Below the pieces are notes generated by a model. The model searched no databases. It saw only the letters and a program-made list of their open reading frames with translations, and was not told the origin of the DNA. The translations under genes and the position numbers were made by a program. From a virus: a DNA stretch of 47,844 bases. Positions 12,915 through 29,678 of this stretch are shown here, in pieces. Each line of letters begins with the position of its first letter. The first letter of the stretch is position 1. Location of the stretch: positions 1-47,844 of the IMG/VR virus record IMGVR_UViG_3300020202_000020; one strand, given 5' to 3'.

Positions 12915-14252
12915 CTAAGCTGCTTTTTGTAGTGATTCTTTTTCAAACGGTGTTGGTATTTCAGAAGAATCTGAATAGATCCAATTTATTGCCCCAGGCA
13001 TTTGCTGTAAATCAATGCGAGCAATGTGCCTAAATATATCACGGGAAGTCGTTAAGAGATTAATACTTTTTTCTGCGTTACCGGCCTCTTTTTCTTTAAT
13101 CGCCATTTGCCGAAAACAATGGCCGAGCATTTCTAAAAGTGTTGCGCTGTTATCTCTTAGACTTAGGGCTTTTTGCAGATACTCAATTGCCGTTGCATAC
13201 CTTCCATAGCGCATGCAGAGGTCAGCGGCAAATTGGTAACCGTCTACCTCGTTAGGACATGCGTCGATTGCTGGCTTAACGTAGTGGTTAAAGATGTCCT
13301 CAAACTTCGGCTCGAATCCACCCTTGTGAAAATTCGCGCGCGTGTTCTCGTAATAATTTCTATAAGCGATCGGGAATTTTGCATAGGCTTCAAATGCTGC
13401 TTTATAGTCGTGGTTCGTTACGGCATCATAGGCCTTTTTAATTGCCGCCATCTTTTTAATAATTTCTTCTGGATTCTCTACAAAGCGAGGCTCTTTCATT
13501 AACTCATCGTTACGCTTACAAATATATGTATCACCGTAAAGAGTGCCGTTATATTTAACTACTTCAAAGCCTACTTTCTTTAAAAGAGATTCAAAAAGGC
13601 TACGCGTCCACACATTCACATGGTTAGTACTGTAATAATATTCAATATCAAAAGAACCTTCCATACCGAAGTTAGTGAGTGTGCTAAACCAAGTAGGAAC
13701 ACTAATATAAAGTAAACCATTTTCTTTAAGAAGCTCTTTATATTGAAGTAGCTTTTTATCAGCATCCATTTGGTGCTCAGCTACCTTGTAAGAGCAAATC
13801 ATGTCATACTTAACATTTGGGTCTAAGTCGTCTTTAAGATTTAAACCATACTCGTGAAAAGCCACGCGCTTAAATGTGGTTGTGAGCTCAGTTCCATGAA
13901 ACTCACCTTTTGGAAAAAACTGTGATCTAACCCAGTTTAGAAAAATACCGTAAGCAGAGCCAACTTCACCGATAACAGGTGAGTTAATTCCCTTCTCAAT
14001 CCACTCCTTAAATATCGGCCTTAGCATAATATCGTGGTGGAGGAGCTTTCTATTTCCAGTATATAGATTGCCGATGCTGGGCGCTTTTCTATATTCTTTT
14101 CTGTAATACTCAATCATCTCAGCTTCTGTTTTGTAGAGCGATGGGTAAGAAACGAACCCACAGCCCATGCAGATTTCCATTTTTTTTGGGACTAGCCGGT
14201 ACTGGTCAGCGTTCTTCCATTTGTCTGTACTGTCGCAGATTAAACATCGCAT
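12915..14252 (-). CDS. Zinc-binding class I SAM methyltransferase with C-terminal TPR-like repeats
   Basis: 445 residues. An N-terminal zinc site (C3-x2-C6 and C28-x2-C31), as in sugar C-methyltransferases of the TylC3/NovU type, precedes a Rossmann SAM domain: GEVGSAYG at 95-102, YDMICSYKVAEH, and a LLYISVPTWF strand. After residue 270 comes a helical region with TPR-like units (YQFAADLCMRYGRYATAIEY). Architecture and context, next to NeuB-like and DAHP-like enzymes and a cytidylyltransferase-GT, suggest methylation of a sugar or glycan. The TPR tail is unusual for this enzyme class. Substrate unknown. Confidence 0.78.
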   Translation of the reverse strand: MRCLICDSTDKWKNADQYRLVPKKMEICMGCGFVSYPSLYKTEAEMIEYYRKEYRKAPSIGNLYTGNRKLLHHDIMLRPIFKEWIEKGINSPVIGEVGSAYGIFLNWVRSQFFPKGEFHGTELTTTFKRVAFHEYGLNLKDDLDPNVKYDMICSYKVAEHQMDADKKLLQYKELLKENGLLYISVPTWFSTLTNFGMEGSFDIEYYYSTNHVNVWTRSLFESLLKKVGFEVVKYNGTLYGDTYICKRNDELMKEPRFVENPEEIIKKMAAIKKAYDAVTNHDYKAAFEAYAKFPIAYRNYYENTRANFHKGGFEPKFEDIFNHYVKPAIDACPNEVDGYQFAADLCMRYGRYATAIEYLQKALSLRDNSATLLEMLGHCFRQMAIKEKEAGNAEKSINLLTTSRDIFRHIARIDLQQMPGAINWIYSDSSEIPTPFEKESLQKAA

Positions 14253-15071
14253 CTATAATACTCCTCGTAACTCTTTGATTTTTTCCATGAGTGTTTGAAA
14301 TTCATAAATAGAAATAGCCTGATCACTATCTGATAAGCTTAATTCTGGGTTTTCGTGAAACTCTATCAGGGCCCCGTCGGCGCCCGCCGCTATTCCAGCT
14401 AAGGCCATTGGCCACACTAAATCTCTTCGACCAGTACCATGCGAAGGATCCACCAATATCGGCAGAGCTGTTATTGCCTTAACCGCCGGTATCATGCTTA
14501 TAGATAAGTCCCAGCGCACGTGTGAGCTATGACCACTAGAGCCCCGCTCTATTAATGTGAGTTCATTTACGCCGCCGACAAGTAGATGCTCAGCCGCTCC
14601 TAAGAATTCATCGATAGTAGAGCCAGGATGACGCTTTAAGAATACTGGCTTTTTGTAATACCCTAGCGTTCTTAGAAGCTGATAGTTTTGCATTTGCCGA
14701 CAGCCAACTTGAAAGCAGTCAGCGTATTGAGCTACCCAGTCGAGCTCATGAGTTGAGTAGTTTAAAACTTCAATAATATTTTTTAAGTTATTTGATCTCG
14801 CGGCCTCGTGATATTGCTTAACAAGATCCTTCTCGATAAGGCCGAAATTCTTGCCGGGAAAAGTACCAGCCCGAAATACGCCTCCACGAAGGTGAGTCGC
14901 ACCACTCTGCTTTGCGATACTCGCAAGGTATTCTATCTGCATTTGATTTTCTACAGAGCAAGGGCCTGCGATGATTGTAAAATCTTTGTTGGGCCTAATG
15001 TAATTAAGCACATTCTCATATGAGGGCCTTGGCCCCCAAATACGCCTATGAGCAAACTCATTTAATTGCAC
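14253..15071 (-). CDS. DAHP-synthase-family (NeuB-superfamily) aldolase
   Basis: 272 residues covering a complete TIM barrel of the AroF/KdsA family. Visible: IIAGPCSVE (PEP site), LRGGVFRAGTFPG, a GCRQMQNYQLL strand, VFLKRHPGST (KR phosphate clamp), and PILVDPSHGTGRRDLV with the metal-binding D-x-SH pattern, then GADGALIEFHENPE. Such enzymes condense PEP with erythrose 4-phosphate or arabinose 5-phosphate. The GTG start lies inside the NeuB-like stop region (14-bp overlap). Phage copies are unusual. It may feed aromatic synthesis, but beside the NeuB-like gene it more likely makes another 3-deoxy-ulosonic acid. Substrate unproven. Confidence 0.85.
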   Translation of the reverse strand: MQLNEFAHRRIWGPRPSYENVLNYIRPNKDFTIIAGPCSVENQMQIEYLASIAKQSGATHLRGGVFRAGTFPGKNFGLIEKDLVKQYHEAARSNNLKNIIEVLNYSTHELDWVAQYADCFQVGCRQMQNYQLLRTLGYYKKPVFLKRHPGSTIDEFLGAAEHLLVGGVNELTLIERGSSGHSSHVRWDLSISMIPAVKAITALPILVDPSHGTGRRDLVWPMALAGIAAGADGALIEFHENPELSLSDSDQAISIYEFQTLMEKIKELRGVL

Positions 15072-15732
15072 GCGCTAGCTCCTCAAATTCGTTTGGCAGT
15101 AACCCATGAACGGACTCATCTAATTGGATGCCATCAAATTGAATGTTTTTATCTAAGGTAAAGTGTTTTTCTACAATGTGGGCGCTATGGTATTTAGCTG
15201 CCTTTACGCACGCCTCAATCCCTCTAGTGTGGTCAGAGTATCCAACTAAGCGTTTATAATATTCGCGCAAGTTATCTATATTTTCTAGATGCGGGTTATT
15301 GGCGGTGTACTCACTTACGTAAAGCACCTGTGCTTTAGTTACGTTAGGTCTTGGACATAGCTCGGGAATAGCTACGAAAAGATTTTCCATATCCATGCGC
15401 TCAGCTGTCGATGGTTTTCGTCTAACATCTGAAGCCGGTAACTTGTGGTACTTTTGATGATAGGTCATCGGATAAAGTTTTCTAGAATAAACTGTGTAGA
15501 ATAAATCTATATCTAGAAATGTCTTGGCGTAGTGAATGAGTTCTAAGTATTCCTCTTGCGTGAATTCACATTGCTTGTAAAAAGCAAAGGGCATAGTGCC
15601 GTTAACGTTTTCTGCAAAGTAGGCCTTTGATTTAACAATGTCGGCACCTGATTCTTTGGCGAGCCGAACTAGTTCTTTCGCTTTATCAAAGTCCCCTAGA
15701 TGGCAATTCCCTATCTCAGCGATTAGAATCAT
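15058..15732 (-). CDS. NeuB-like N-acylneuraminate/nonulosonic acid synthase
   Basis: 224 residues from ATG 15732, which gives the family start MILIAEIGNCHLGD (a TTG at 15741 is possible). SGADIVKSKAY corresponds to the VKFQ strand, and GYSDHTRGIE, then VEKHFTLDKN, carry the conserved Asp-His and catalytic His/Glu of sialic acid synthases. These condense PEP with ManNAc or a related sugar to give a nonulosonic acid. The C-terminal antifreeze-like (SAF) domain is absent and the barrel is short (NeuB is about 345), so it is a minimal or diverged form. Directly upstream of the DAHP-type gene. Confidence 0.8.
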   Translation of the reverse strand: MILIAEIGNCHLGDFDKAKELVRLAKESGADIVKSKAYFAENVNGTMPFAFYKQCEFTQEEYLELIHYAKTFLDIDLFYTVYSRKLYPMTYHQKYHKLPASDVRRKPSTAERMDMENLFVAIPELCPRPNVTKAQVLYVSEYTANNPHLENIDNLREYYKRLVGYSDHTRGIEACVKAAKYHSAHIVEKHFTLDKNIQFDGIQLDESVHGLLPNEFEELARAIK

Positions 15733-15734
15733 GG

Positions 15735-15872
15735 CTAACAATCACTCCCAAATTTGAATACGGCGATACAAATATTCATTAATAGAATTAGGCCCGTGAG
15801 CGCGCAGTACATTGGCTCGTTAACATGATGAAAATAAAAAGCCAGCACTATTAAAATCACGGCGGCACACAT
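15735..15872 (-). CDS. 45-residue membrane protein
   Basis: Two short hydrophobic segments (AVILIVLAFYFHH, then ALTGLILLMNICIAVF). It overlaps the upstream membrane protein gene by 16 bases and stops two bases before the NeuB-like ATG, so it tiles the gap exactly. The size lies below usual ORF thresholds. Function unknown; it could form a membrane partner of the preceding small protein. Confidence 0.55.
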   Translation of the reverse strand: MCAAVILIVLAFYFHHVNEPMYCALTGLILLMNICIAVFKFGSDC

Positions 15873-16042
15873 CCAGAAGCTAAGCAAATGAAGGCCACGA
15901 GAAATCCAATCATTAAAAAAATATCCATGTAAAGGTTCACATAAAGACTGGGCGTTAATACTTTGCTTTGAATAAGCGCTCTAACGCTTGTTATGAATCC
16001 AACCGTCATGATTGTGAAAAAGAGAAGGGCTAGGTATTTCAT
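15857..16042 (-). CDS. 61-residue membrane protein
   Basis: Start ATG 16042 (MKYLALLFF), chosen because it gives an ATGA overlap with the upstream gene; longer frames from 16075 do not. Two membrane helices (LALLFFTIMTVGFITSV and IFLMIGFLVAFICLAS) are joined by a short polar loop. Part of a run of tiny membrane genes in the sugar-modification region. No family recognised. Confidence 0.6.
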   Translation of the reverse strand: MKYLALLFFTIMTVGFITSVRALIQSKVLTPSLYVNLYMDIFLMIGFLVAFICLASGCVPP

Positions 16043-16398
16043 TTCGCCTCGACAGCAGCCAAGGCCGCAAGACATATAGCATGCGGTGCCGACTCTGCAA
16101 TAGTTGAATGATCTACGCGGTGGTCATTATCCCATTCATCGTATTTAAGGAAACACCACTTATCGCTTGCAGTTTTACCAAGTGAGTTTGTCCATCCGAT
16201 AAGATCTATGTGCTCCACAACCTTCCATGCGGCGCCAAGATCAGTAGAGTAATAAGGGAGCTCTGGCATTTCGTTAGGAGGCATCATTGAGCCATTCGGA
16301 AAAACGACCCACATTTTTCCCCTCATGTAGTCACAACCTATGGATAGGTTAAATATTTTTCCAGCAATCAATTTGTCTAACTCTCTACCAGCTTCCAT
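16039..16398 (-). CDS. Phage ABA-sandwich domain protein
   Basis: 119 residues from ATG 16398 (MEAGRELDKLIAGKI), overlapping the upstream stop as TAATG. The pattern MEAGRELDxLIAxKI, then YYSTDLGAAWKVVEHI, then SAPHAICLAALAAVEA is the Phage_ABA_S family, found in many phages with unknown function. It lies between a PNK-type phosphatase and membrane genes. The domain is usually 80-120 residues, so it is complete. Confidence 0.82.
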   Translation of the reverse strand: MEAGRELDKLIAGKIFNLSIGCDYMRGKMWVVFPNGSMMPPNEMPELPYYSTDLGAAWKVVEHIDLIGWTNSLGKTASDKWCFLKYDEWDNDHRVDHSTIAESAPHAICLAALAAVEAK

Positions 16399-16874
16399 TA
16401 GTAGTCTCCCTCGGCGCACTGCAAGCACACAAGCCCTAGTTCACGCCACAGCTTTACCACTTGCGACCTGTCATCAACTACGAACTCAACGCCGTATTTT
16501 CCGTCTATATACTTCTCGTATATTTCTTTTTTGATTTCAAAGTCTGGCCTGTAGTCATTTTCTTTTCTTAAAAATAACCAGTGAAATCTAATGTCATGCT
16601 CCTCAAGCCATCCTCGAGTAACACTCATGTAATTATCAGGACGGCCAGAGACTAAAAGAATTGTGTAACCTTGTGAGTGATATAAGTTAGACATTTTTTT
16701 GCACCACTCATTTGGTTTATCTTTAATCATAGAATCAAAGAATAATGACCAGTGTTTTTTTTCTAAATTGAGCAAGTGTCTTCTGTGATCAATATTGGCA
16801 AGTGTACCGTCAATATCAAAGATCACAGCCTTAGGCTTAATATGATTGTTTTCGCAAATAGCTTTCAAGCTCAC
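16398..16874 (-). CDS. HAD phosphatase resembling the 3'-phosphatase domain of T4 polynucleotide kinase
   Basis: 158 residues. KPKAVIFDIDGTLANIDHRR is HAD motif I (DxDGT). ILLVSGRPDNY with a TRGWLEEH follow-up is motif II. KENDYRPDFEIKKEIYEKYI and FVVDDRSQVVKLWRELGLVC (motif III/IV, DDR) match the T4 Pnk phosphatase domain rather than sugar phosphatases. No kinase domain is present. Start GTG 16874 overlaps the upstream gene by 38 bases; GTG 16826, just after the upstream stop, would shorten it to MIFDIDGT. Expected to remove 3' phosphates from nucleic acid ends, though a nucleotide-sugar-related phosphatase role cannot be excluded. Confidence 0.82.
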   Translation of the reverse strand: MSLKAICENNHIKPKAVIFDIDGTLANIDHRRHLLNLEKKHWSLFFDSMIKDKPNEWCKKMSNLYHSQGYTILLVSGRPDNYMSVTRGWLEEHDIRFHWLFLRKENDYRPDFEIKKEIYEKYIDGKYGVEFVVDDRSQVVKLWRELGLVCLQCAEGDY

Positions 16875-17235
16875 TATCTGTCATCCTCTTTTCATCTTTT
16901 GTATGTTTTTTATTCTTAACTATTTTTCTGATTGTTTTATCAATTGAACCGATCCAGCGAGGAAACATTTCTATTAGCCCTTGAGTCGTTAGCCTTTTTT
17001 TAACCGCATCGTCCATACCGAGTTGAAGTCCATATCTCACTCGTACAAGTTCGTTTATATTTTTGCTTTTAAAACACCTTGTTAACCACTCATTCCATTT
17101 CTCATGCGAGCTCACCGCCTTAAATACTTTTGTAGAATCAAACGACGTCTTAGTATTTACGCTTAGGACATCGTCCTCGAAACCTTCTAAGGTGCCGGTG
17201 TAAAGTTTAACCACGTCTATAGCTTGGTGTTTCAA
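16837..17235 (-). CDS. Unknown late-region protein
   Basis: 132 residues from TTG 17235, which forms a TTGA overlap with the upstream stop; a longer ATG start at 17259 would overlap more. Basic and helical with a central FPRWIGSIDKTIRKIVKNKK. The segment IEMFPRWIGS recalls a widespread small phage protein, but I cannot name the family. It is followed by the PNK-type phosphatase. Confidence 0.55.
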   Translation of the reverse strand: MKHQAIDVVKLYTGTLEGFEDDVLSVNTKTSFDSTKVFKAVSSHEKWNEWLTRCFKSKNINELVRVRYGLQLGMDDAVKKRLTTQGLIEMFPRWIGSIDKTIRKIVKNKKHTKDEKRMTDSELESYLRKQSY

Positions 17236-17486
17236 TCTCCGAAACCCCCGCCGCCACATCCGGAGTCGAATGAACCACCGCCCGAATCAAATGAGCTACC
17301 ACCGCAGCCCGAGTCGCTGCTGCTACCGCCGCCGCTGTCGTAAGAAGGCCAACTAAGTGGACTCGCAGGATTTACATAATTCAAAGTGTTGGACGGATCT
17401 AGCAGGCTAGTCGATTCTTTGCGCTCGGCTTTTTTGGCCGGCGTGTTTTCTTTTTTTCTTTTGAACAAGTCTAAAATCGTTTTCAT
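17232..17486 (-). CDS. Gly/Ser/Cys-rich small protein
   Basis: Eighty-four residues from ATG 17486, preceded by GGAGGG three bases away; a longer frame from 17561 lacks this and overlaps another gene. A basic N terminus (TILDLFKRKKENTPAKK) is followed by a low-complexity tail of SGGGS and DSGCGG units with three Gly-Cys-Gly sites. Such tails occur in small cell-surface or secreted proteins, but there is no signal peptide. Unknown function. Confidence 0.6.
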   Translation of the reverse strand: MKTILDLFKRKKENTPAKKAERKESTSLLDPSNTLNYVNPASPLSWPSYDSGGGSSSDSGCGGSSFDSGGGSFDSGCGGGGFGD

Positions 17487-17653
17487 CTGCCCTCCACAAA
17501 GGCGACCGAGTAATAAAATCCGAATAGGCATGCGTAGCTTAAGCCAGCAGAGGCGGCCCAAACTTCGCCAGGCGTCGCGCCATTTGCCTCAAGCAACATT
17601 AATAAAGAAACTCCAATAAACGACCACGCGATCATTAGTAAAAATGGCTTCAC
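17483..17653 (-). CDS. 56-residue membrane protein
   Basis: Missed by size cut-offs. GTG 17653 forms a GTGA overlap with the upstream zinc-ribbon stop and its own stop overlaps the next ATG (ATGA), so it tiles the operon perfectly. Two membrane segments: PFLLMIAWSFIGVSLLMLL and GLSYACLFGFYYSVAF, separated by EANGATPGEVW. Holin-like topology, but it lies far from the lysis cassette. Function unknown. Confidence 0.6.
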   Translation of the reverse strand: MKPFLLMIAWSFIGVSLLMLLEANGATPGEVWAASAGLSYACLFGFYYSVAFVEGR

Positions 17654-17901
17654 TTCCACCCCATTGTTGTATGTAACATTCCTCGACCATTAAATTTTGC
17701 ATAAGGCGTATTACAGTTAGGACAGTTAAACGGCTTGTCTTTAGCGATACTTTCAGGCTCAACACTTATCGCTGTGAATTTACTCGGCGTGATTCTCTCG
17801 CTTGGATAAAGATCAACATTAAGCTCAGCGATTATTATCGCGCAGTTAGGACAGCAAATCTTAGTACCTTCAGGTAAGTAATTAACGTTTGATGTTTGCA
17901 T
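17650..17901 (-). CDS. Zinc-ribbon protein
   Basis: Eighty-three residues with two CPNC pairs (residues about 17-20 and 59-62), consistent with one zinc ribbon, and a beta-rich body between them. It sits directly after the cytidylyltransferase-GT gene, overlapping by 20 bases. Could be a small adaptor or nucleic-acid-binding protein; no family recognised. Confidence 0.6.
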   Translation of the reverse strand: MQTSNVNYLPEGTKICCPNCAIIIAELNVDLYPSERITPSKFTAISVEPESIAKDKPFNCPNCNTPYAKFNGRGMLHTTMGWK

Positions 17902-19210
17902 GTTTTAAATCAATCTCTGCTCTTATTTTTTTTCTGTATTCAATATTATTTTTACTTAAACTCTCAGCATGTTGACGGTAGAAAAATAATGGACGGTTTA
18001 AGTACCCAACTTTAATTTGGTCCTTAGCTCTTACGAAAAAGTCATAGCCTTCGTAGCCTCGTAACCCGTCGGTGAACTTAACGTGATTTACAGCCTTAGT
18101 GTTAAAGAGTGCTCCGCCCACGTGATGATCTTGTGAACCACGCTGAATGATCGAGCGTGAACCGAAATAATTATTTGGGTATACTACATCTAAGCTTCGT
18201 TCTTTAATCTCGTAAAGCATTTGAGCTATTGCAGTTGGCTCTACAAAATAGTCATCAGCATCAAGCCTAATGATGTGGCGACCGCGAGCTAATTGGAGTG
18301 CAATATTTGAACTTGTAGCAAGGCCAACGTTTTGCGGGTTTCTAAAATATTTAACGTTTTTATTCTGACATGAAAACTTAACTAGCTTTTTAGGCGAGCT
18401 ATCCTCTGAATAGTCATCAACTATGATAAACTCAAAATCTTTAAAGCCCTCTTGGCTCTTAACTGACTCAAGGCATTCATCAATATATTTTTCAGCGTTG
18501 TAGGCGCATGTGTAAACTGTAACTTCTGGCTGTTTGTTGATAGATGTAATCCATGCGTTTTCAGTTATGAACTTAAGAACACTTGTAACGCTTGCATTAT
18601 TACCCACGCACGCGAAAAGTGCTGAGATAAACTTAACATCTTCCGGGAAATCAATTAGAAGCCTTGTTTTTGGCAGATGCTTTTTAGAGAAATCAAAATC
18701 AAAGACGTTATCAGTAACCGCCTTAATGGCGTAACTTGTAAACTCGACTGGATTTTTAAATGAGTGAGCAGCCAAGCTTAGTGCTTTACTTGAGATAATC
18801 TCAAACCCACAACCAGGGGTTATGCTTGAGCTAAATAAGTAATCAAGGCCCTTATCATCAAAAACACTTAGAGCTTTTTGAATATCCTCTGGGTCAACTA
18901 ATATTTTATCAGCGGTAACTCTGATAACTTTATCGGCCTTAAGTTTACCGGCAATTGTGTTTAAGGCGTGCAGCGGGCTTTTTGAATCAAACTCACCGCG
19001 AGTGTAAAAAATGAGAGAAGGATACTCTGAAATGAATGGTACAAACTCATGGTCTTGATTTTCGGGATATCCTATTGCTATAGGAATGCCCAACGGCATG
19101 AGTCTTTCGACTAGGTGACTGAGTAGCTTTTTGCCATTTATGTTTTTAAAGATTTTATTAGGGATTCTTTTTGAATCCGTTCTAGCGCAAATGACAATAG
19201 CTGCTGTAAT
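17882..19210 (-). CDS. SpsF/NeuA-type cytidylyltransferase fused to a GT2 glycosyltransferase (ATT start)
   Basis: 442 residues if started at ATT 19210. The first ATG (19099) would remove the nucleotide-binding motif. In frame above it lies AAIVICARTDSKRIPNKIF, the ARxxSxRxPxK loop of SpsF/NeuA cytidylyltransferases, with no ATG, GTG or TTG before the preceding stop. The ATT comes one base after the TAA of the LuxR-like gene, so coupled initiation is plausible. Domain 1 (about 1-225) also has KVIRVTADKILVDPEDI. Domain 2 (about 230-442) is GT2: VTVYTCAYNAEKYIDECLES, IIVDDYSED and the DxD RLDADDYF. Together these predict CMP-activation of an acidic sugar and its transfer. Transfer by the same chain is inference. 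Confidence 0.8.
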   Translation of the reverse strand: MTAAIVICARTDSKRIPNKIFKNINGKKLLSHLVERLMPLGIPIAIGYPENQDHEFVPFISEYPSLIFYTRGEFDSKSPLHALNTIAGKLKADKVIRVTADKILVDPEDIQKALSVFDDKGLDYLFSSSITPGCGFEIISSKALSLAAHSFKNPVEFTSYAIKAVTDNVFDFDFSKKHLPKTRLLIDFPEDVKFISALFACVGNNASVTSVLKFITENAWITSINKQPEVTVYTCAYNAEKYIDECLESVKSQEGFKDFEFIIVDDYSEDSSPKKLVKFSCQNKNVKYFRNPQNVGLATSSNIALQLARGRHIIRLDADDYFVEPTAIAQMLYEIKERSLDVVYPNNYFGSRSIIQRGSQDHHVGGALFNTKAVNHVKFTDGLRGYEGYDFFVRAKDQIKVGYLNRPLFFYRQHAESLSKNNIEYRKKIRAEIDLKHANIKR

Positions 19211-19211
19211 C

Positions 19212-19511
19212 TTATAACCCCGCTTGAGTTAATTTCTGGTAAACGCCGATGCGGTTTCTCACACCTAGCTTTTTAAATATATTTGTAAAATGAAACTTAA
19301 CCGTCTTTTCGCAAATGTGTAGAGCGTTTGCGATATCGATATTTTTTGCGTGAGTTTTTAGAGCTTCAATAATTTCAATCTCACGACGGGTTAGTTTGTT
19401 AAATCTAGTTTTGTATTTAATAAAAGTATCTGTTGGATCTACCTCTGTCGGCTTGCTTTTGCCCGTATCTACCGCTGACACCATGTCCTTATGTGGTAGC
19501 ACTAAATTCAT
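19212..19511 (-). CDS. LuxR-type HTH regulator, small
   Basis: Ninety-nine residues; the C-terminal 63 are a complete LuxR/FixJ HTH (LTRREIEIIEALKTHAKNID, then ANALHICEKTVKFHFTNIF and KKLGVRNRIGVYQKL). The N-terminal part is too short for a receiver or sensor domain, like GerE. It may control the glycan-modification or late genes or host genes; no operator can be identified. Its TAA is one base before the ATT start of the next gene. Confidence 0.85.
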   Translation of the reverse strand: MNLVLPHKDMVSAVDTGKSKPTEVDPTDTFIKYKTRFNKLTRREIEIIEALKTHAKNIDIANALHICEKTVKFHFTNIFKKLGVRNRIGVYQKLTQAGL

Positions 19512-19512
19512 G

Positions 19513-19716
19513 TCATTCCTCCTTGTGATTAATCCTTGGCTTTTCTATTTGCATTCTGTCGTTAAGCCTTTTTAAAAATCTCATTATTCCTTGGCCGGTT
19601 TCAGTCGCGTACGCTAGGTCATTTTCCTCAAGAGCAATTAGAAGGTTTGTCATATCTGATCTTAGATCCATTACTTCAGTACCTTCTAAAACAACGTACA
19701 CACGAGTTTTGGTCAT
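19513..19716 (-). CDS. Small unknown protein between rSAM and LuxR genes
   Basis: Sixty-seven residues, mixed alpha/beta (TRVYVVLEGTEVMDLRSDM, then LIALEENDLAYATETGQGIM). Overlaps the radical SAM stop as ATGA and is followed by the LuxR-type gene after an AGGAGG Shine-Dalgarno. No family recognised. It may partner either neighbour. Confidence 0.55.
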   Translation of the reverse strand: MTKTRVYVVLEGTEVMDLRSDMTNLLIALEENDLAYATETGQGIMRFLKRLNDRMQIEKPRINHKEE

Positions 19717-20678
19717 GCGTGCCAGCCCGGTTGATAGCCCTGATAACTTTCATAACTACTGCACGTCTTGCATGGATCTTTTAAGAAGGCTGATCCATCT
19801 TTGAGTGATCGCCTAAGTTCTTTCGCCTGAATGGAATTATAGATGCTCCAGACGGTGTCTTTATCGATGTGTCCAAGTTGGAGTTTTTCCCCGATGTCTG
19901 GGCAACATGCATGCGCACGACCGGAGTGATTGAATATAACTCTAACGTGAGCTTGCTGGCAGGACTGTCTCCTAGATGAATCTTTTGTTTTGTGCTCAAG
20001 ACCAGATAGGTCAGCTCCAACACGCCCTGTAACCATATCACGCACCGAGACACTAGCAGAAGGCCAACGTCTTTTAACTTCCCCATAGATATCCTCATCT
20101 TTATTGAGCTTAGTTCTTACCGCCTGAATTACCATTTCAGTGTTTGATAAAATACGAAGCGGGTGATTATAGAACTTATCAATGTTAGCAAGTGCTAGCT
20201 CATACTTAGCGCCACGCCTTTGCGTTTCGAGCACTTCTTTTATGAAAGAATCAAAAGATATTTTAACTTTAGTTTGATTAGATAGGCCTTCGAAAATTTC
20301 TTCTTTGTTAGTTGGAAATTTAAAATTAGAGTTTGTGAGTCTATCTATGAACGTAGTTCTAGTTGAAAGCTTTTTAGCAAGAGCTGTGCAGTCTCTAAAT
20401 ATAGGATTAAGTGTACTCTCACCCTTCCAATTAAACTTGATTGAGTTAACACCTAAGACAGCGCTTTGATAAATTATCTCCTCAGCTGTCTCCCATTTCA
20501 TTAAACCTTTAACGAAAGGTAAATTCTTTTGGTCGGCGTGATAACAATATCCACACGATTGATTACAGGTTGAGGATAATTCTAAAGAGACATCTACTGG
20601 AGTTGTGAGTAGTAGGTTTTTACCGTAGCGGTATTTGAATCGGTACCAGTTATAATTTATTCGGTCAATCCATGACAT
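19713..20678 (-). CDS. Radical SAM enzyme with SPASM-like C terminus
   Basis: 321 residues. The [4Fe-4S] motif C38-x3-C42-x2-C45 (CNQSCGYCYH) and the following strand FNWKGESTLNP (the GGEP-like substrate/SAM element) define a radical SAM barrel. A C-terminal Cys set (SCQQAHVRV, HACCPD, DPCKTCSSYE) fits a SPASM/twitch auxiliary cluster as in peptide or sugar-modifying enzymes. First gene after the adhesin, leading the sugar-modification region. It may epimerise or otherwise modify a sugar or protein substrate. Substrate unknown; anaerobic chemistry implied. Confidence 0.85.
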   Translation of the reverse strand: MSWIDRINYNWYRFKYRYGKNLLLTTPVDVSLELSSTCNQSCGYCYHADQKNLPFVKGLMKWETAEEIIYQSAVLGVNSIKFNWKGESTLNPIFRDCTALAKKLSTRTTFIDRLTNSNFKFPTNKEEIFEGLSNQTKVKISFDSFIKEVLETQRRGAKYELALANIDKFYNHPLRILSNTEMVIQAVRTKLNKDEDIYGEVKRRWPSASVSVRDMVTGRVGADLSGLEHKTKDSSRRQSCQQAHVRVIFNHSGRAHACCPDIGEKLQLGHIDKDTVWSIYNSIQAKELRRSLKDGSAFLKDPCKTCSSYESYQGYQPGWHA

Positions 20679-20679
20679 C

Positions 20680-20703
20680 TACCACTTAGTTGAGTAAGTG
20701 GTA
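20680..20703. promoter_or_regulatory. 9-bp inverted repeat just upstream of the radical SAM gene
   Basis: TACCACTTA-GTTGAG-TAAGTGGTA is a perfect hairpin or operator ending two bases before the radical SAM ATG. The right arm overlaps the 23-bp repeat. A second hairpin (TTACC...GGTAA) lies at about 20716-20736. No U-tract follows, so regulation of translation or repressor binding is more likely than termination. Confidence 0.45.
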
Positions 20704-20718
20704 TTTCCAATGTCAATG
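20696..20718. repeat. 23-bp dispersed repeat, copy 2
   Basis: Exact copy of 10709-10731, in the gap between the adhesin stop and the radical SAM start. Orientation relative to the downstream gene is the same as at copy 1, about 18 bases upstream of the start codon. Confidence 0.6.
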
Positions 20719-20751
20719 TTACCGCATTTTTGCAGGTAAATAGTCCTAAGT

Positions 20752-21867
20752 TTAGATATAGTAGACGACGCAAATACCATTTGTACCGTCGCCGCCGCCC
20801 TCGCCGACGGTGCCAGCTCCCGTGCCACCGCCTCCTCCGCCGCCACCTCCGGCCCCAAAAGCAGTAGCCCCGGCGTCGCTTCCGCCGTTACCAGCCGCGC
20901 CAGCTCCTCCCCCTTCGCCACCGTTGCCGCCTCTACCCCAAAGAGATGCGCCACCGCCACCACCGCCACCACCGCTGACTCCGTTGTTACCGTCACCTCC
21001 AGTGAAGGTTACTGCGTGTGTTCCTGCTGTTCCAGCAGCCCCCGCGTTTCCACCGGATCCACCGCTTGCCGCGACAAGGGCCATTCTTGGAGTGGTCGAA
21101 CCACCCGCACCGCCAGTGCCCCCGCCTCCAGTATTTCGCCCCCTAGTTCCGCCCTGTCCGCCGGCGAAAGAGTATGTCTTTGATCCGACAACAACGGTCG
21201 TAGTTCCACCAGGAGACCCAGAGTTTCCGTCCCCACCGCCGGAGCTCGCCGACCCCCCGGCCCCTGAATTTCCAACGGTTATCGACAGCACTGTCGCCGC
21301 GCCCACGTCTATGGTGAAAATTCCGTAGTGTCCCGATTGCCCACCACCACCGCCACCACCGGCATTACCACCACCACCACCTCCTCCCCCGCCTCCTCCA
21401 GCCGCCTCGATGATTAGCGCCGCTGTGCCAGAGGGAATTGTAAACGTCCCGTTAGAAGTAAACGTTTGCGCTTTCATTTCAATATTAAAAGCAAACGCAC
21501 TTTGAGTTATGCTCGATGGCCTTATCGTACCCCCATCAAAGCCGTCAGACTTAAAACAGCCAACGGTTACACCTTCAATTAAAACATCAATCGCGCCCGC
21601 AGCTGTGCCTGTCTGCCCTTGAATAAGAAGTGTCGCGGTCGTCGTGGAAGTTCTAAGATCAAGTGAATTTGTATATAGACAACGCCAGTAGGCATCACTC
21701 GCACCTAAATCGTAAGTATGATTGGCGCTAGTGGAAGTGTTTGGGTCTACAGGCATTATGTGGCCGCGATAGACATTGAAGTTTGCGTTCACTTCATTGG
21801 CTCGCGCTTTTGTGCCTGGAGTGAATGTGTAAAAACTTGAGCTTGTTATTGTGTTAGAACTTGGCAT
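20752..21867 (-). CDS. Glycine-rich tail adhesin
   Basis: 371 residues. The N-terminal module (residues about 1-60, YRGHIMPVDPNTSTSANHTYDLGASDAYWR) is shared with the 22218-23174 protein and probably attaches to the fibre. From about residue 130 the protein is 40-50% glycine in long runs of GGGG with aromatic and polar interruptions, ending ICVVYYI. Polyglycine sandwiches of this sort form the receptor-binding tips of T2-type gp38 adhesins. The final gene of the tail cluster in the direction of transcription. The GC content is far above its neighbours because of the glycine codons. Confidence 0.8.
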   Translation of the reverse strand: MPSSNTITSSSFYTFTPGTKARANEVNANFNVYRGHIMPVDPNTSTSANHTYDLGASDAYWRCLYTNSLDLRTSTTTATLLIQGQTGTAAGAIDVLIEGVTVGCFKSDGFDGGTIRPSSITQSAFAFNIEMKAQTFTSNGTFTIPSGTAALIIEAAGGGGGGGGGGGNAGGGGGGGQSGHYGIFTIDVGAATVLSITVGNSGAGGSASSGGGDGNSGSPGGTTTVVVGSKTYSFAGGQGGTRGRNTGGGGTGGAGGSTTPRMALVAASGGSGGNAGAAGTAGTHAVTFTGGDGNNGVSGGGGGGGGASLWGRGGNGGEGGGAGAAGNGGSDAGATAFGAGGGGGGGGGTGAGTVGEGGGDGTNGICVVYYI

Positions 21868-21868
21868 C

Positions 21869-22228
21869 TTACAAATCCCTCGCTAGTAATTTGCACATTC
21901 TCTTTAGTAGAGTTTTGATAGGCGCCTCAAGGCTTGAATTATCGATAACCGTATTAGCTAATTTTAATTGTTCGACGAGAGTTTTTTCTGTCGTTCGCCT
22001 TGCCTCATCTCTTGTTAGCTTGTCTGCCAATGCTTGGTCGTAGGCAGCTTTTTTGACAAGATCAACTTCCACGCGTCCATTTATTAAAACTAAAAATATA
22101 CCGTCCTCAATCTTAAAGTCGGTATTAGTAATATCAATTAATGGATCGATATTTTTTGGAATGAAGCCATCAGTCGTGAATACGCGGCCCTTACCGTTCC
22201 TGTCGACCGTGAACCATTTAAATGCCAT
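21869..22228 (-). CDS. Probable fibre-associated or fibre-assembly protein
   Basis: 119 residues between two fibre genes. The N-terminal 60 residues are beta-rich (FKWFTVDRNGKGRVFTTDGFI, then GIFLVLINGRVEVD) and the rest is a charged coiled-coil-like helix (DKLTRDEARRTTEKTLVEQL). Overlaps the upstream fibre gene by 11 bases. Small proteins in this position are often fibre assembly chaperones or connectors; no family recognised. Confidence 0.55.
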   Translation of the reverse strand: MAFKWFTVDRNGKGRVFTTDGFIPKNIDPLIDITNTDFKIEDGIFLVLINGRVEVDLVKKAAYDQALADKLTRDEARRTTEKTLVEQLKLANTVIDNSSLEAPIKTLLKRMCKLLARDL

Positions 22229-23174: not shown

Positions 23175-23175
23175 C

Positions 23176-24582: not shown

Positions 24583-24585
24583 TAA

Positions 24586-25374
24586 TTACACCGATGTTTG
24601 TTTAAGCCTTATGCTGCCTGAAAAACCAGAGGCAGCAGCGTCGTCGCTATATTCTAGAAAATCAAAACCACCTGACCATACGCAGGGGAATGCGACTTTG
24701 TCCCATGAGGTAGATGTGGGAAATGCTGCGAAAATAAATTCATCTTGCAGGTCATATACTTCACGCAAAGCACTCGTAAAAGTTAAGCCAACGTTGTCGA
24801 ATTTCACATTGGCACTAAATACATCTCTTACGAAATGTATACGCGTACCACCATCAGCCATCTTATGTTCAACACGCTCAGGGGTTACTTGTGGTTTATA
24901 ATTACTAGAGTTTGGAATTCGTCCGCCGTCAGCTTCAAAATCTAAAAGAACATCGCTAACAACTACCCAACCCACGGCCTTCTCAACGTTCGCTACCTGA
25001 GTTGAATACACATCAAAGCTTACTGAAGTACACGCGACTGGGGTCGTAAATAAATACATACTCGTTTCAGAGTTAGTGGAAAAGTTAGCTGTAGTCGTTG
25101 CCGAAGTTGTCGTGAGAGCAAAGGTACTAGCGGTTGTGCCGTTATAGTAACATCTAAATTGTTTCCAATTCATGTTAGCTAAAACAATTCTCGATACAGT
25201 TTTGGTCGAGCTAAAATTAATTCTTATTGTTGCTGTCGTTGAATCGTTATTAAAGCCTGAGCTTATGTACTGCTGCCTTAAGTCTGTGGACATCATGTAC
25301 TGGGCGCCTGCAGTGTTTGAATTAACTACCAGTGCACTCGTAGTATCTAAAAAGTTTTTGTAGATAAACTCCAT
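24586..25374 (-). CDS. Distal tail-like protein
   Basis: 262 residues, immediately after the tape measure gene. A discoidin-like beta-sandwich is suggested in the first half (IRINFSSTKTVSRIVLANMNWKQF, then CTSVSFDVYS), the sort of galactose-binding fold found in Dit proteins of carbohydrate-binding phages. The second half ends with GFDFLEYSDDAAASGFSGSI. Assigned mostly by position and fold impression. Confidence 0.6.
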   Translation of the reverse strand: MEFIYKNFLDTTSALVVNSNTAGAQYMMSTDLRQQYISSGFNNDSTTATIRINFSSTKTVSRIVLANMNWKQFRCYYNGTTASTFALTTTSATTTANFSTNSETSMYLFTTPVACTSVSFDVYSTQVANVEKAVGWVVVSDVLLDFEADGGRIPNSSNYKPQVTPERVEHKMADGGTRIHFVRDVFSANVKFDNVGLTFTSALREVYDLQDEFIFAAFPTSTSWDKVAFPCVWSGGFDFLEYSDDAAASGFSGSIRLKQTSV

Positions 25375-27056
25375 TAGATTATGCCCTCAAAAGATAGCGA
25401 GCCACCTTCTTTTCTAAGCTTGTAAAGTTCTTTATCAAGAACTTCAGCAAAGCGTCTTGCTTGTGATTCATCGCCAAGAATTGGACCGTTAAAGTTAATG
25501 GTCATTCCACCGCCTAAGCCTGAATCGGGATCAAAGTTTTTAGGAAGTGGGATAACGGCCTCAGCTCTATCGCCTTCACCGATTGTTGCTTGTGTACCGC
25601 CAGGGGTAGGCATGACAATACCGCCCTCAGCTAGTTGGACGCCTGATATCTTAGCCACGTTTGCAAAAGCTTGAACGCCGATACCTATGGCCGCCGCGAT
25701 ATTGGCCGGGTATGGGACGTTTGCTAGAGCATTTTGAATGGCAACGTAGGCGTTCATTGTCGCATTCGCAATTGCAGCTGCCTTACCGATGGCCGCTATT
25801 TGTTTGTTGCTTGACTCAGTAAGAGCAGAAAGGCCAGAGAAAAACGTGCTGTAGCCCTGAAGCTTTTCTTTATTTTCTTGCTCGAGGAGCATCTTTCTTT
25901 GAACTACGCCCTTTTGCTCAAGGAAGTCTTTTTTCTTTTGGAAGTCTGTCTCGGCGGCGATGGCCTTGTTTAAATAATTTAAATGATTGCTTAGGCGATT
26001 TTCGTTATTTGAATTTAGCCATGCTGTATGGGCCATCTCGAGTTCTTGCTCGAGCGTTAGCTTTTCGAACAGCTTGGCTTCTCTCTCTATCTTTTCTTGT
26101 TCCTCTTGCGCATTATTTAAAGCCTTGGTATTGGCTGCTATTTCTATCTTTGTTTCTTCGTGCTTCCTAAGTTCTTCCTCTAACAGTCTAAGGTTGGCGC
26201 GTTCTTTTTGAAGTTTTTCCTCAGAGAAAATTAGCTTATCGACAGAAGAAGCTTGTGCTGAATTTTGAACCTCGTAAACTTTTTGTGCAAGCTTTGCGTA
26301 CTCTGTGCGCGCAGCTTGTACTTTCGCTACAAGTGGATCCATGCTTGCGGCGTTCTTTTGATTTACTCCAATTAACTCTGTAGCGCTTTCAACTATGTCA
26401 CCTAGAATATTGGCAAGCGGCAAGAGCACGGTAGTTAGTCTGCCGCCAATGGCCTCCATAAAATCGCTGAATGTGTTGGCAAGCTTTGAGAACCCGCCAG
26501 CCCCTTGAGCCGCGGCCTCTGCTTGTCCGTAGAAAACAGAGTTTAGCGTCCGGGTAACATTAGCAAGCCGACCCTCTTTATCTATGGCGTCTTCAATGTA
26601 AACGCCGTGACGCTGAAAAACCGTGGTGTTCCCTGTTATCGCCTTACCGACAAGGTTGGCCGCCGTGGTTAAGTCCATCTTTTTGGCCGCCGCGAGATTT
26701 AGCGTAGCCTTTATTAGGTCTTCGGTAACTTCCCTTTGACCAACAAATCCTTGAAGAACTGCTTGCGCGCTAATGACCTGCTCGTCGGCAAATAGAGTGG
26801 TTTTTTGAATGCTCGAGGCTAGCTGAAGGTATTTATTTTTGAGGTCGTCGCTATATACGCCCTGATTGATCATGGACTGATTGAGGGCGTTTATCGCTTG
26901 TTCTTCTTCCCTGTAGGCACTAATAGCATTGGCTACGAATTGAGGAATTTGTCTTGCGACATTGATAAGGTCGCCTAACGTGATCACAAATCGGTCCATG
27001 ACTTGCTGGCCGACCTGCTTGACTCGGAGTAAGAGTGTAGCTTCTTTCTGGGCCAT
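25374..27056 (-). CDS. Tape measure protein
   Basis: 560 residues. N-terminal VKQVGQQVMDRFVITLGDLI and a helical stretch (YREEEQAINALNQSMINQGV, then ITGNTTVFQRHGVYIEDA) match phage tape measure starts. A hydrophobic segment (GGRLTTVLLPLANILGDIVES), a long coiled coil (about 245-390), and a Gly/Ala-rich hydrophobic C-terminal region with GGIVMPTPGGTQATIGEGDRAEAVIPL follow, the last a widespread tape measure signature. By the usual 0.15 nm per residue the tail would be near 84 nm. The start overlaps the stop of the frameshifted chaperone. Confidence 0.9.
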   Translation of the reverse strand: MAQKEATLLLRVKQVGQQVMDRFVITLGDLINVARQIPQFVANAISAYREEEQAINALNQSMINQGVYSDDLKNKYLQLASSIQKTTLFADEQVISAQAVLQGFVGQREVTEDLIKATLNLAAAKKMDLTTAANLVGKAITGNTTVFQRHGVYIEDAIDKEGRLANVTRTLNSVFYGQAEAAAQGAGGFSKLANTFSDFMEAIGGRLTTVLLPLANILGDIVESATELIGVNQKNAASMDPLVAKVQAARTEYAKLAQKVYEVQNSAQASSVDKLIFSEEKLQKERANLRLLEEELRKHEETKIEIAANTKALNNAQEEQEKIEREAKLFEKLTLEQELEMAHTAWLNSNNENRLSNHLNYLNKAIAAETDFQKKKDFLEQKGVVQRKMLLEQENKEKLQGYSTFFSGLSALTESSNKQIAAIGKAAAIANATMNAYVAIQNALANVPYPANIAAAIGIGVQAFANVAKISGVQLAEGGIVMPTPGGTQATIGEGDRAEAVIPLPKNFDPDSGLGGGMTINFNGPILGDESQARRFAEVLDKELYKLRKEGGSLSFEGII

Positions 27057-27639
27057 TACCTGCGCTTCCTCATTCGTTTGGCTTTTTCAGCATTTTCTTT
27101 GGACAGGCGCTCGTGATTCAAAACGCCCTCCTGAGCAATAATTAAATTCTGCTGAAATTCCTCAATGCCTAATTTTAATATTTCTGATGGCAAAACACCG
27201 TAGCGCTGAGCTATCTGGTCAATCGCTACAGCCGACTTCTTAACGATTCTAGCTGTTTGAACTTTTTTTTTCCGTAGGTGTACTCAATGATGTGCGTGTA
27301 AAGCTCTTCGCAAATATCCCAGTCATTCAGAATATTGCCGACAAATGTTTTTCCCGGCTCATCTTTTTTGTTGGTTATTTTGGGGCTCACCACAGCACTC
27401 ATGAACACGTCGGCGTAATGTTCTTTTATTTTCTCAATGTGCTTAGGGTCTGCTGTGGCCTTCCCTAGCGCCCTATCTGCATCGTAAGTGTTAAAGGCCT
27501 GAAGCATTACGTTGTAGCCTGCAGCCACATCCAGAGGACATATTTTCTTAATATGAAAGCTTACGCCCTTTATTTTTACTGCCTTAACTTCGTTTAAGAC
27601 GGCGTCCAGGTGACGCCTACCAAATATCCAATTAAGCAT
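27056..27639 (-). CDS. Tail assembly chaperone GT-type, -1 frameshift product
   Basis: About 194 residues from ATG 27639 with a -1 shift at the heptamer A AAA AAG (27268-27262). After the shift the reading frame runs KKKVQTARIVKKSA..., is open for about 70 codons, is helical and ends KRMRKRR with a TAA overlapping the tape measure ATG (TAATG). Tail chaperones G/GT of siphoviruses are made in just this way, upstream of the tape measure gene; the fused form binds both the tape measure and tail-tube protein. The nine-A run allows slippage on more than one codon pair. Confidence 0.85.
27226..27639 (-). CDS. Tail assembly chaperone G-type (unshifted product)
   Basis: 137 residues with FGRRHLDAVLNEVKAVKIKG and a helical body, ending at TAG after the A9 run. 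It shares the first 125 residues with the longer frameshifted form. Encoded between the tail tube and tape measure genes, the universal siphoviral position. The start overlaps the tail tube stop by 8 bases. It would coat the tape measure C-terminally with excess copies over the GT form. Confidence 0.85.
   Translation of the reverse strand: MLNWIFGRRHLDAVLNEVKAVKIKGVSFHIKKICPLDVAAGYNVMLQAFNTYDADRALGKATADPKHIEKIKEHYADVFMSAVVSPKITNKKDEPGKTFVGNILNDWDICEELYTHIIEYTYGKKKFKQLESLRSRL
27262..27268 (-). promoter_or_regulatory. -1 ribosomal frameshift site A AAA AAG
   Basis: The run of nine A, then G (minus strand, 27271-27262), gives the most efficient type of bacterial slippery heptamer in the correct register for a -1 shift into the 70-codon extension frame. 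A downstream stimulatory hairpin was not obvious; A AAA AAG functions without one in some phages. Confidence 0.8.
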
Positions 27640-28681
27640 AACTAGATGTTAGGTTCCTTACTACCGCTCGCATTGGGTAGCCGCCTGCAGAGGAGTCGTC
27701 ACGCAACACTGCAAAGGTTACTTGCGATGTTAATATTTCATCAGGTCCAGAAATTTCCGGATCACCCGCATCACTTACAAATATTTTTGGGAATTGAAAT
27801 TTAACAGACCTTGTGAATTTAGAGCCTGTTAGCGTTGTGCCGGTAAATTCAAGCTCAGCGGCAAGCTGAGTGTTTGCCATCATGGCATCAAAAGCAGTCG
27901 TGGTATCAAATCTAATTGTGGCGTTAAATGTAAAGTTAGCAATGCCGACTGGTAGCACACCCAAAATGTCAGACCCGATTCTTCGAGAAGCGCTGTCTGA
28001 TTTAAGGTTGTTTGCAATTCCAAACTCAACGCTTTGGACATGCCAGAATGAAGTTGAGGTCAAGCTTGAAAAGTTACTCTCTACCGAGATACGACCGTTA
28101 ACAAAAGATAGCGGTTGATTCTGGGCAACTGATAGAGCGCTTGAAACATCATTAGAAGTTTTTGTCACGTCCATTGCAATGACCTGGGCCGTGCATTTTA
28201 GTGCTTCGTCAATTTCAGCTGAAAACATAAATTCATTAACTCGCACGCCAGAATATTGAAACACCATTCCGCCAGAAGAATCCCCCTTGCGGTGATTAAA
28301 ACAAAGTGAAGTGTAACTCTGGTCCATGTTGCCAATAGAGATGATATGTTCAAAGCTAGCCGATCCAGTTGTTTCACTGGTTGTGGTCGCACTTGTAACC
28401 GTTCCACCCAGCGCATTTTGTAAAAGATAAACAAAGCTTGCGGCCTCGGAGTATGGATAAAACTCCATCTCTCCTTCAATAGTTTTTCCAAGCGCTATCT
28501 GCTTTGAGTAGGAGCGTTTGGTTTCAATTTGCTCTAATATTTTTACTTCTTTTGTGGCCTTAAAGGAGGCTGAGATAAAATCCAAGGCCGAGGTACACGT
28601 GGTATAAGTGTTTAAAGTAGTCTCTCGCCCTACGGCAAGATAACTATTGAAACTTGTTAAAGCGCCCTGTCCTACGGCCAT
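27632..28681 (-). CDS. Major tail (tube) protein
   Basis: 349 residues, beta-rich, starting AVGQGALTSFNSYLAVGRET, the usual N terminus of siphoviral tail-tube proteins (AxGxxxYxxYGxET). Central repeats of TSATTTSETTGSASFEHII lead to a second domain with SVEFGIANNL. Located directly before the G/GT chaperone pair. It is larger than lambda gpV. It is abundant in the virion and thus a possible substrate of the adjacent Maf-like protein. Confidence 0.8.
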   Translation of the reverse strand: MAVGQGALTSFNSYLAVGRETTLNTYTTCTSALDFISASFKATKEVKILEQIETKRSYSKQIALGKTIEGEMEFYPYSEAASFVYLLQNALGGTVTSATTTSETTGSASFEHIISIGNMDQSYTSLCFNHRKGDSSGGMVFQYSGVRVNEFMFSAEIDEALKCTAQVIAMDVTKTSNDVSSALSVAQNQPLSFVNGRISVESNFSSLTSTSFWHVQSVEFGIANNLKSDSASRRIGSDILGVLPVGIANFTFNATIRFDTTTAFDAMMANTQLAAELEFTGTTLTGSKFTRSVKFQFPKIFVSDAGDPEISGPDEILTSQVTFAVLRDDSSAGGYPMRAVVRNLTSSYA

Positions 28682-28691
28682 GAATGCCCTC

Positions 28692-29678
28692 CTAGATTGA
28701 GGCTAAATGCGATCGCCAGTGTTTATTGGAAATTTTTCTAATCTTTTCTTCTGTCTCAGAAATTCTTCGCTTCAAAGCATCGCGCTCGGCTGCGAAATTA
28801 ATTACCTTCCGAGAATCAACGGTATCAAATTTATATTGCATTTGTGATTCGAGACTTTTGACTGGAACGGCACCAAGGATTGTTGAATCACTACCCAATA
28901 CTACAGGTAACTTGAATAAATTTAAATAGTTTTCTAACCATTGCGCTGAGAATAGAAGGTTAGTTGATGTATAGCAATGATGCCCGCCTCGCGTTCTGGC
29001 AAACACGTGGGTCATATAAAAGCGCTTACCTTGAGCCGAGTGATCAAAGGCGTAGTAGTTTTTATTATGACGCCAACAAAAGTCGTAGCCAATTAATACA
29101 ATCTTGTCATAACCAAAATAGTTCTTTCTGCCTTTGTTATCACTTTGAGTGACCATGACTAAAAGTGAATTACCCACATTGGTAGCGGCAGGGATTGTGT
29201 TGTCACACTTAGATAACGCTGTGAATTCTTTCTCAGTCTGGATTGCATCCTCGACACAGTAAAAGTACATCTTTTTCCAATTACCATTATCAGTCCACTT
29301 AGGGTTGGCGGTTACAGCTGAGAACAGTATTGTGTTTTGAAGCTTATTTTCCCATGGCTTCATATATTTTTCATAGTCAACTACTGCGTCAGCGACCATG
29401 CAAAAAGTTGGAGTAATGCCATTATCTAAGAGTGTGCCGAGTGTTTTATCACAGCACATGATATCGACATTTGACTGGTATTTTTTTATCGTCTCGATGT
29501 TTTCTTCAAATGAGTATCCATTACCAACAAGTAGGAGGGCTTTACCAATTCCAGAGAACTTAAAATCAGAAAGAGGTCTAAACGGTGCGTGCTTTGAGTG
29601 ATGAATTGCATGCGCTCGCCATTTATCACACCACTGATTGTAAGCTGATTTACTCTGTGAAATTACGTCTAAAGCCAT
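28692..29678 (-). CDS. DUF115 / Maf-type (flagellin glycosyltransferase-like) protein
   Basis: 328 residues. GKALLLVGNGYSFEENIETI, then VDIMCCDKTLGTLLDNGITPTFCMVAD, then NVGNSLLVMVTQ and FGYDKIVLIGYDFCW correspond to the DUF115 (PF01973) core: a GNGxS nucleotide loop, dTLgxLLdnGIxPxFxxxaD, and the GxDxxW strand. DUF115 includes the Maf enzymes that transfer nonulosonic acids to flagellin; MptE-type 6-hydroxymethylpterin diphosphokinases are the other branch. Its place inside the tail cluster, directly upstream of the tail-tube gene, plus the NeuB-like and CMP-transferase genes at 15-19 kb, supports glycosylation of a virion protein. Substrate and donor unproven. Confidence 0.8.
   Translation of the reverse strand: MALDVISQSKSAYNQWCDKWRAHAIHHSKHAPFRPLSDFKFSGIGKALLLVGNGYSFEENIETIKKYQSNVDIMCCDKTLGTLLDNGITPTFCMVADAVVDYEKYMKPWENKLQNTILFSAVTANPKWTDNGNWKKMYFYCVEDAIQTEKEFTALSKCDNTIPAATNVGNSLLVMVTQSDNKGRKNYFGYDKIVLIGYDFCWRHNKNYYAFDHSAQGKRFYMTHVFARTRGGHHCYTSTNLLFSAQWLENYLNLFKLPVVLGSDSTILGAVPVKSLESQMQYKFDTVDSRKVINFAAERDALKRRISETEEKIRKISNKHWRSHLASI

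Follow-up and report, generated by a model that had tools for sequence, protein, structure and literature searches.

A phage gene cassette predicted to make, activate and attach a Kdo- or sialic-acid-like sugar, with two alternative synthases

Introduction

Why should a tailed phage carry, among the genes for its own particle, enzymes for making and activating a sugar acid? This question is raised by the IMG/VR record IMGVR_UViG_3300020202_000020, which we analyzed over its whole length of 47,844 bases (the window). The window belongs to a tailed phage with a Mu-type portal, a major head protein, a tape measure and an integrase, and its genes from the terminase to the amidase all lie on the minus strand. 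A cassette sits in this late structural operon and encodes a BtrN-like radical S-adenosylmethionine (rSAM) enzyme, an SpsF-type cytidylyltransferase fused to a family 2 glycosyltransferase (SpsF-GT2), a small helical protein, a phosphoenolpyruvate (PEP) aldolase, here called the synthase, and a methyltransferase with tetratricopeptide (TPR) repeats. A Maf-like DUF115 gene adjoins the tail-tube gene. The original prediction, made from the DNA letters, saw here a module for nonulosonic (sialic-type) acids; the six genes that it named are all found on the minus strand, with profile matches to the families it proposed, and as a gene set for the synthesis, cytidine monophosphate (CMP) activation and transfer of a 3-deoxy-ulosonate-type sugar they bear it out. 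In this paper we suggest that the cassette probably serves to make a sugar of the 3-deoxy-2-ulosonic acid type, similar to 3-deoxy-D-manno-octulosonic acid (Kdo) or to sialic acid, and to activate and attach it, and we describe a synthase position that is filled by one of two different enzymes.

Results

Relatives were gathered by scanning viral contigs with the rSAM, SpsF-GT2 and DUF115 proteins and with the synthase that resembles 3-deoxy-D-arabino-heptulosonate-7-phosphate (DAHP) synthase (the DAHPS-like protein). A search for the same gene set, which had been proposed as a check in related prophages, was successful in uncultured viral contigs: the order fibre, rSAM, SpsF-GT2, small helical protein, synthase and methyltransferase-TPR recurs in more than 30 other contigs, and the arrangement is therefore not a matter of chance. 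In a second group of phages (L010, L020, L024, L026, L027, L132, and L133) the cassette genes lie upstream of, or among, the terminase and portal genes. In L029, a 57-kb viral contig, SpsF and GT2 are separate genes beside the rSAM gene and a DAHPS-like gene with AGTYP, and a large sugar cluster (positions 1-20783; PfkB kinase, nucleotidyltransferase and epimerase-like genes) surrounds this minimal set. Based on these varied placements the cassette can be regarded as a unit that is found in different genomic settings. Some cassettes hold additional sugar-nucleotide genes, for example UDP-glucose dehydrogenase and an epimerase in L076.

The synthase position was counted in the 34 cassettes in which both the synthase and the methyltransferase are visible. 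Twenty-two have the DAHPS-like enzyme only, 10 have NeuB only, two (the window and L021) have both and none has neither (Fisher p 5e-7, uncorrected for kinship). The search with the DAHPS-like protein favours contigs of its own type; those first reached through rSAM or SpsF comprise four with the DAHPS-like enzyme and nine with NeuB, without any double carrier. The SpsF-GT2 and rSAM trees require 10-11 changes of synthase label in all, the starred branches forcing at least 5-6 changes for the DAHPS label and 2-3 for the NeuB label, and in the SpsF-GT2 tree a DAHPS-type contig (L002) and a NeuB-type contig (L078) are sisters at 100/100. NeuB, which had been proposed as a core enzyme, is thus absent from 22 of the 34 cassettes, and since the DAHPS-like enzyme fills its place there, the two PEP aldolases look, by their sequences and distribution, like functional alternatives and not like two steps of one pathway. 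Such an interchange implies that both give the same kind of product.

The DAHPS-like enzyme scores 244 bits against TIGR01361, under the 268-bit cut-off. In its alignment the metal ligands C38, H211, E237, and D248 are invariant, as expected for a (beta/alpha)8 PEP aldolase, and so are R62, K146, R147, and R176, leaving the PEP-site residues intact. In the established DAHP synthase structures (AroG/Thermotoga) the Arg-Thr segment of the KPRT motif grips the phosphate of erythrose-4-phosphate (E4P). By alignment with 1zco, all 25 phage copies have [RS]AGT[FY]P where real DAHP synthases have KPRTSPY, so that the KPR(T/S) signature of the type I-beta enzymes is missing. For comparison, the DAHP synthase of an Endomicrobiia metagenome-assembled genome (MAG) reads FKPRTSPY at this place and its Kdo8P synthase FKASYDKGNRSS. 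Because the grip for the E4P phosphate is missing and the cassette lacks a conserved phosphatase, the phage enzyme probably uses an unphosphorylated sugar, as does NeuB. We considered a phosphatase step common to the cassettes and rejected it, as the PNKP-type phosphatase gene of the window has no counterpart in the related cassettes; it also has no kinase partner in its stretch.

A profile scan of 84,980 species genomes, which needs exact peptide patterns and may miss divergent cellular relatives, found a single AGT[FY]P-type copy, on a MAG contig with terminase, portal, capsid and tail genes. This contig (L020 1-19527) holds the only cassette of the genome collection and was binned in an Endomicrobiia MAG, which gives a hint of the host of that phage group. 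In a tblastn search of 50,697 annotated phage records the rSAM and DUF115 proteins had no match. The DAHPS-like query matched, at 38-43% identity, unannotated contigs of 'Listeria/Staphylococcus/Enterococcus phage' records, which we read as bacterial, the AGT[FY]P motif not having been read there.

The NeuB of the window does belong to the predicted family, but it is a short form. The phage copies are only ~224-247 amino acids long, without the C-terminal SAF domain, the next gene starting at once, and the matches to the NCBIfam equivalogs TIGR03569 and TIGR03586 are far under the cut-offs. The predicted catalytic residues E6, K34, K97, S166, H168, E188, and H190, which we take to match those of meningococcal NeuB, are invariant in the window and in nine NeuB-only phage copies; among them are the SDH and EKH motifs and the Lys that are predicted to serve metal and PEP in the barrel domain. 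In one NeuB-only phage (L018/G017; L071 1950-2728) the reading frame shifts between the two halves of the gene, by assembly error or decay. A single-sequence NeuB query against the viral contigs found no match because the copies are only 30-48% alike; a 10-row profile recovers the cassette copies and 18 more distant viral NeuB genes outside the cassette, several of them full-length. Within the cassette records PF03102 mostly picks up the DAHPS-like gene, and such matches were left out of the NeuB count.

Both families that were predicted for the SpsF-GT2 fusion stand. In a profile of the fusion protein the cytidylyltransferase part matches 6oew (5.7e-29, amino acids 4-226) and Kdo cytidylyltransferases at about 1e-10, and its R-x2-S-x-R...K loop is present, with R10, S13, R15, K19, and also D101 invariant. 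The GT2 domain is nearest to 6p61 (1.7e-33) and chondroitin synthase, and the residues of its DD and DxDD motifs (D265-D266, D317, and D319-D320) are invariant. The reading frame, however, has no ATG, GTG or TTG before the catalytic N-terminus (19099-19211) and carries ATT where the relatives have ATG, possibly a weak non-canonical start or a mutation.

The best PDB match of the rSAM profile is BtrN (7.7e-15), an aminocyclitol dehydrogenase that turns an alcohol into a ketone. Nearly all copies keep CxxxCxxC and the auxiliary four-Cys pattern C-x17-CC-x43-CxxC of a BtrN-like twitch domain. The methyltransferase-TPR, for which a profile was built from 19 copies, is present in all cassettes with the 3' end in range except L029, and its TPR repeats may dock the acceptor. 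The gene list of the original prediction holds, yet it left out the small helical protein, which has an AlphaFold2 (AF2) model of four helices (predicted local distance difference test, pLDDT, 75). The 115-amino-acid protein at the same place in L010 and L132 was tried as a homologue and is unconvincing (8-18% identity).

The transferase candidate is the DUF115 protein, whose predicted Maf relationship and place beside the tail tube were both supported. Maf enzymes attach nonulosonic acids, experimentally N-acetylneuraminic acid (Neu5Ac) and Kdo with CMP-Neu5Ac and CMP-Kdo accepted as donors, to flagellin Ser/Thr (PMC11339370). The phage protein, of 328 amino acids, scores 66 bits against PF01973 (cut-off 34.6), and a fold search with its AF2 model (pLDDT 85) places Maf 5MU5 at the top (Z 22.0 over 239 amino acids), followed by the MptE HPPK 8sd5 (Z 15.6) and sialyltransferases (Z 9-10). 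The model thus has the central PF01973 domain with its sialyltransferase-like fold, and it aligns only to residues 237-513 of the 5MU5 chain, which are this central domain; the three-domain architecture and the flagellin linkage of Maf are absent, and no flagellin gene was noticed in the phage. DUF115 is present in 36 of 38 cassette records, the exceptions being a 15-kb fragment and L029, and wherever both genes are visible in a relative it lies directly upstream of the one for the tail tube. None of the DUF115 records without rSAM has more than 8.9 kb downstream (G032, with 8.9 kb, is borderline), and therefore these records do not argue against the link.

As the partner of DUF115, the tail-tube-like protein is a candidate glycan acceptor. 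It contains 23.5% Ser and Thr, and several other tail proteins are Ser/Thr-rich too. A second candidate is the Gly-rich fibre, a homologue of which stands before rSAM in most relatives. A long proline-rich open frame (20810-21328, plus strand) runs antisense to the fibre gene and most likely just reflects the glycine codons of that gene.

Table 1. Features of the window discussed in the text.
Feature	Position	Strand	Evidence
Methyltransferase, N-terminal CxxC...CxxC, C-terminal TPR repeats	12915-14252	-	Methyltransf_23 (PF13489) 1.3e-10; TPR
DAHP-synthase-like PEP aldolase, core synthase of the cassette family	14253-15071	-	PF00793 (DAHP_synth_1) 2.2e-44
Short NeuB-type PEP synthase, 224 amino acids, without SAF domain	15058-15732	-	PF03102 3e-19
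PNKP-type HAD phosphatase, window only, not a conserved cassette member	16398-16874	-	PF25109 7e-40
Small helical protein, conserved just before the synthase	16837-17259	-	Present in nearly all window-type cassettes
SpsF-type cytidylyltransferase (amino acids 1-225) fused to GT2 (226-442)	17882-19210	-	CTP_transf_3 (PF02348) 5e-13; Glycos_transf_2 6e-30
Radical SAM/twitch enzyme, BtrN-like (sugar dehydrogenase type)	19713-20678	-	SPASM 1e-5; Radical_SAM 2.5e-5
Gly-rich tail fibre/adhesin, second candidate acceptor	20752-21867	-	Translation; just upstream of the cassette
Tail-tube-like protein, 349 amino acids, candidate acceptor	27632-28681	-	Position and original prediction; DUF115 partner
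DUF115/MptE-like, Maf-type transferase candidate	28692-29678	-	PF01973 3.5e-18; directly upstream of the tail-tube gene

Other genes of the window were also noted. An orphan LuxR/GerE-type helix-turn-helix protein (19212-19511; PF00196 4e-16) lies in the cassette region and has a relative on the opposite strand in L022. A subtilase-family protease (45323-46507; PF00082 8e-37) has a relative in L099, and at 9212-10150 a homing-endonuclease-associated HNH repeat is joined to a calcineurin-like phosphoesterase in one protein.

Discussion

In the pathway that we infer, with regard to substrate, product, order of steps and acceptor alike, the PEP aldolase, be it the DAHPS-like enzyme with AGT[FY]P or the short NeuB, would condense PEP with an aldose, and the SpsF domain would turn the product into a CMP-sugar. 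The Maf-like DUF115 protein would then place the sugar on Ser/Thr residues of a virion protein, with the adjoining tail tube and/or the fibre as the most likely acceptor, while the GT2 domain, the BtrN-like rSAM enzyme (alcohol to ketone) and the methyltransferase would extend or tailor the sugar. Such a coat may shield the particle or improve its adsorption. Synthesis and activation of a sugar acid are the well-supported part of this scheme, which we hold with good confidence. Attachment to the virion is likely, and between the virion and the host surface the data lean to the virion. The ulosonate part of the predicted product stands; the nine-carbon ('nonulosonic') part is unproven, because in the cassette survey the NeuC epimerase and the Pse or Leg enzymes, which carry out the precursor steps specific to nonulosonic acids, were not seen conserved.

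Several points weigh against this scheme. No gene for a specific aldose precursor is conserved, so that the host must supply the aldose. The SAF domain, which contributes to substrate binding in characterized NeuB enzymes, is absent from the phage NeuB. To our knowledge GT2 enzymes do not normally use CMP-sugars, and therefore the fused GT2 may take a different donor. Since only the central one of the three Maf domains is present in the phage protein, a flagellin-type mode of acceptor recognition cannot be assumed, and the co-occurrence of DUF115 with the cassette could partly reflect shared phage ancestry.

One alternative is that the sugar-acid pathway modifies a polysaccharide of the host surface, lipopolysaccharide or capsule, in order to block superinfection or to change the receptor. 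O-antigen is a frequent target of phage GT2 proteins, GtrB-like matches were found, and because the window has an integrase a role in lysogeny is possible. Yet the cassette is part of the late operon with the structural genes, its proteins show no clear membrane segment apart from one hydrophobic stretch of the DAHPS-like barrel, neither a flippase gene nor a GtrA-like one was noticed, and DUF115 is tied to the tail-tube gene and not to the lysogeny region; we consider this explanation rather unlikely. The same link of DUF115 to the tail tube speaks against the placing of the sugar on phage DNA, as hypermodified bases, instead of on protein. Phage glycosyltransferases do often modify DNA, but the scanned window proteins included no thymidylate-synthase-like hydroxymethylase and the phage carries an N6/N4 DNA methylase instead (39720-40616), which makes this hardly credible.

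The two other alternatives regard the synthases. NeuB and the second aldolase might act jointly, in two steps, on a nine-carbon sugar: the window has both genes, NeuB (ATG at 15732) overlapping the DAHPS-like gene by 14 bases and the latter abutting the methyltransferase gene, and none of the predicted catalytic residues is missing from the NeuB of the window. This is improbable, given that a single synthase is present in 32 of the 34 cassettes and that the second double carrier, L021, has a NeuB in which both metal histidines are lost (SDH to KDK, EKHF to EKNI), as expected of a redundant copy. It was also considered that the gene of the DAHPS-like enzyme is unrelated to its neighbours and serves, like an ordinary auxiliary metabolic gene, to raise the synthesis of aromatic amino acids during infection. 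Its membership in the DAHPS family is clear and DAHP synthases are known in phages (PHROG 5045), but the E4P grip is replaced in every one of the 25 copies, NeuB takes its place in the same slot of other cassettes, and CMP-sugar and transferase genes are its neighbours even in the distant L029, so that we regard this as very improbable.

Returning to a virion sugar made by exchangeable synthases, we tentatively go one step further and propose that the AGT[FY]P enzyme could be a phage-restricted aldolase with a new substrate, repeatedly swapped with NeuB, whose unphosphorylated ulosonate is oxidized, methylated and put on the tail tube by a minimal Maf. If true, this would be a virion ulosonic-acid glycan together with a natural case of convergent synthase exchange. 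The synthase slot would then be an evolutionary experiment in which two different PEP aldolases take one role, the AGT[FY]P enzyme would predict a new aldolase specificity, and DUF115 with the tail tube would offer a minimal two-gene case for protein O-glycosylation with Kdo- or sialic-type sugars.

Comparison with known systems

In the open-licence literature we found no description of the cassette as a whole, of the exchange of its synthase or of the AGT[FY]P enzyme; PMC6292376 was rejected as a report of a phage NeuB, since its keyword match was to author names. A phage-borne NeuB alone is not new, because NeuB and SpsF genes occur together in a few viral contigs and, near each other, in the marine T4-like virus AG-345-L05 (MH319754). 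The latter differs in that its genes belong to a large sugar cluster, with no match to DUF115, rSAM or the AGT[FY]P synthase in the stretch read. The AGT[FY]P enzyme shares the fold family, the metal ligands and the PEP-site residues of type I-beta DAHP synthases (1zco, 1rzm), and differs from them by the replaced KPRT motif and by its occurrence almost only in phage contigs.

Mycobacteriophages have capsid and tail-tube subunits that bear glycans (Freeman et al. 2023, as cited in PMC12619734, PMC11256854). As those citing papers present it, that system uses glycosyltransferases, and CMP-ulosonate synthesis, for which our cassette has candidate genes, is not mentioned there. The sps operon of Bacillus subtilis encodes SpsE (NeuB-type) and the SpsF cytidylyltransferase and places legionaminic acid on spores (PMC7439481); the cassette has a similar pairing of synthase and cytidylyltransferase, presumably also to coat a particle. 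In contrast to that operon, counterparts of SpsC, SpsD, SpsG, and SpsM were not seen in the cassette, its SpsF is fused to GT2, and the acceptor would differ.

Another parallel is the glycosylation of bacterial flagellin by Maf, with NeuB, LegI or PseI and a CMP-sugar synthetase. There, as in the phage, a PEP aldolase, a cytidylyltransferase and a transferase of PF01973/Maf fold are present, and the transferase gene adjoins that of a repetitive tube-like structural protein. The phage version differs in having only the central Maf domain, a synthase that is usually DAHPS-like and no precursor enzymes, and it adds rSAM, GT2 and methyltransferase-TPR. If our reading is correct, phages carry their own pathway of sugar-acid synthesis, activation and transfer for decorating the particle, which goes beyond borrowing the sugars of the host.

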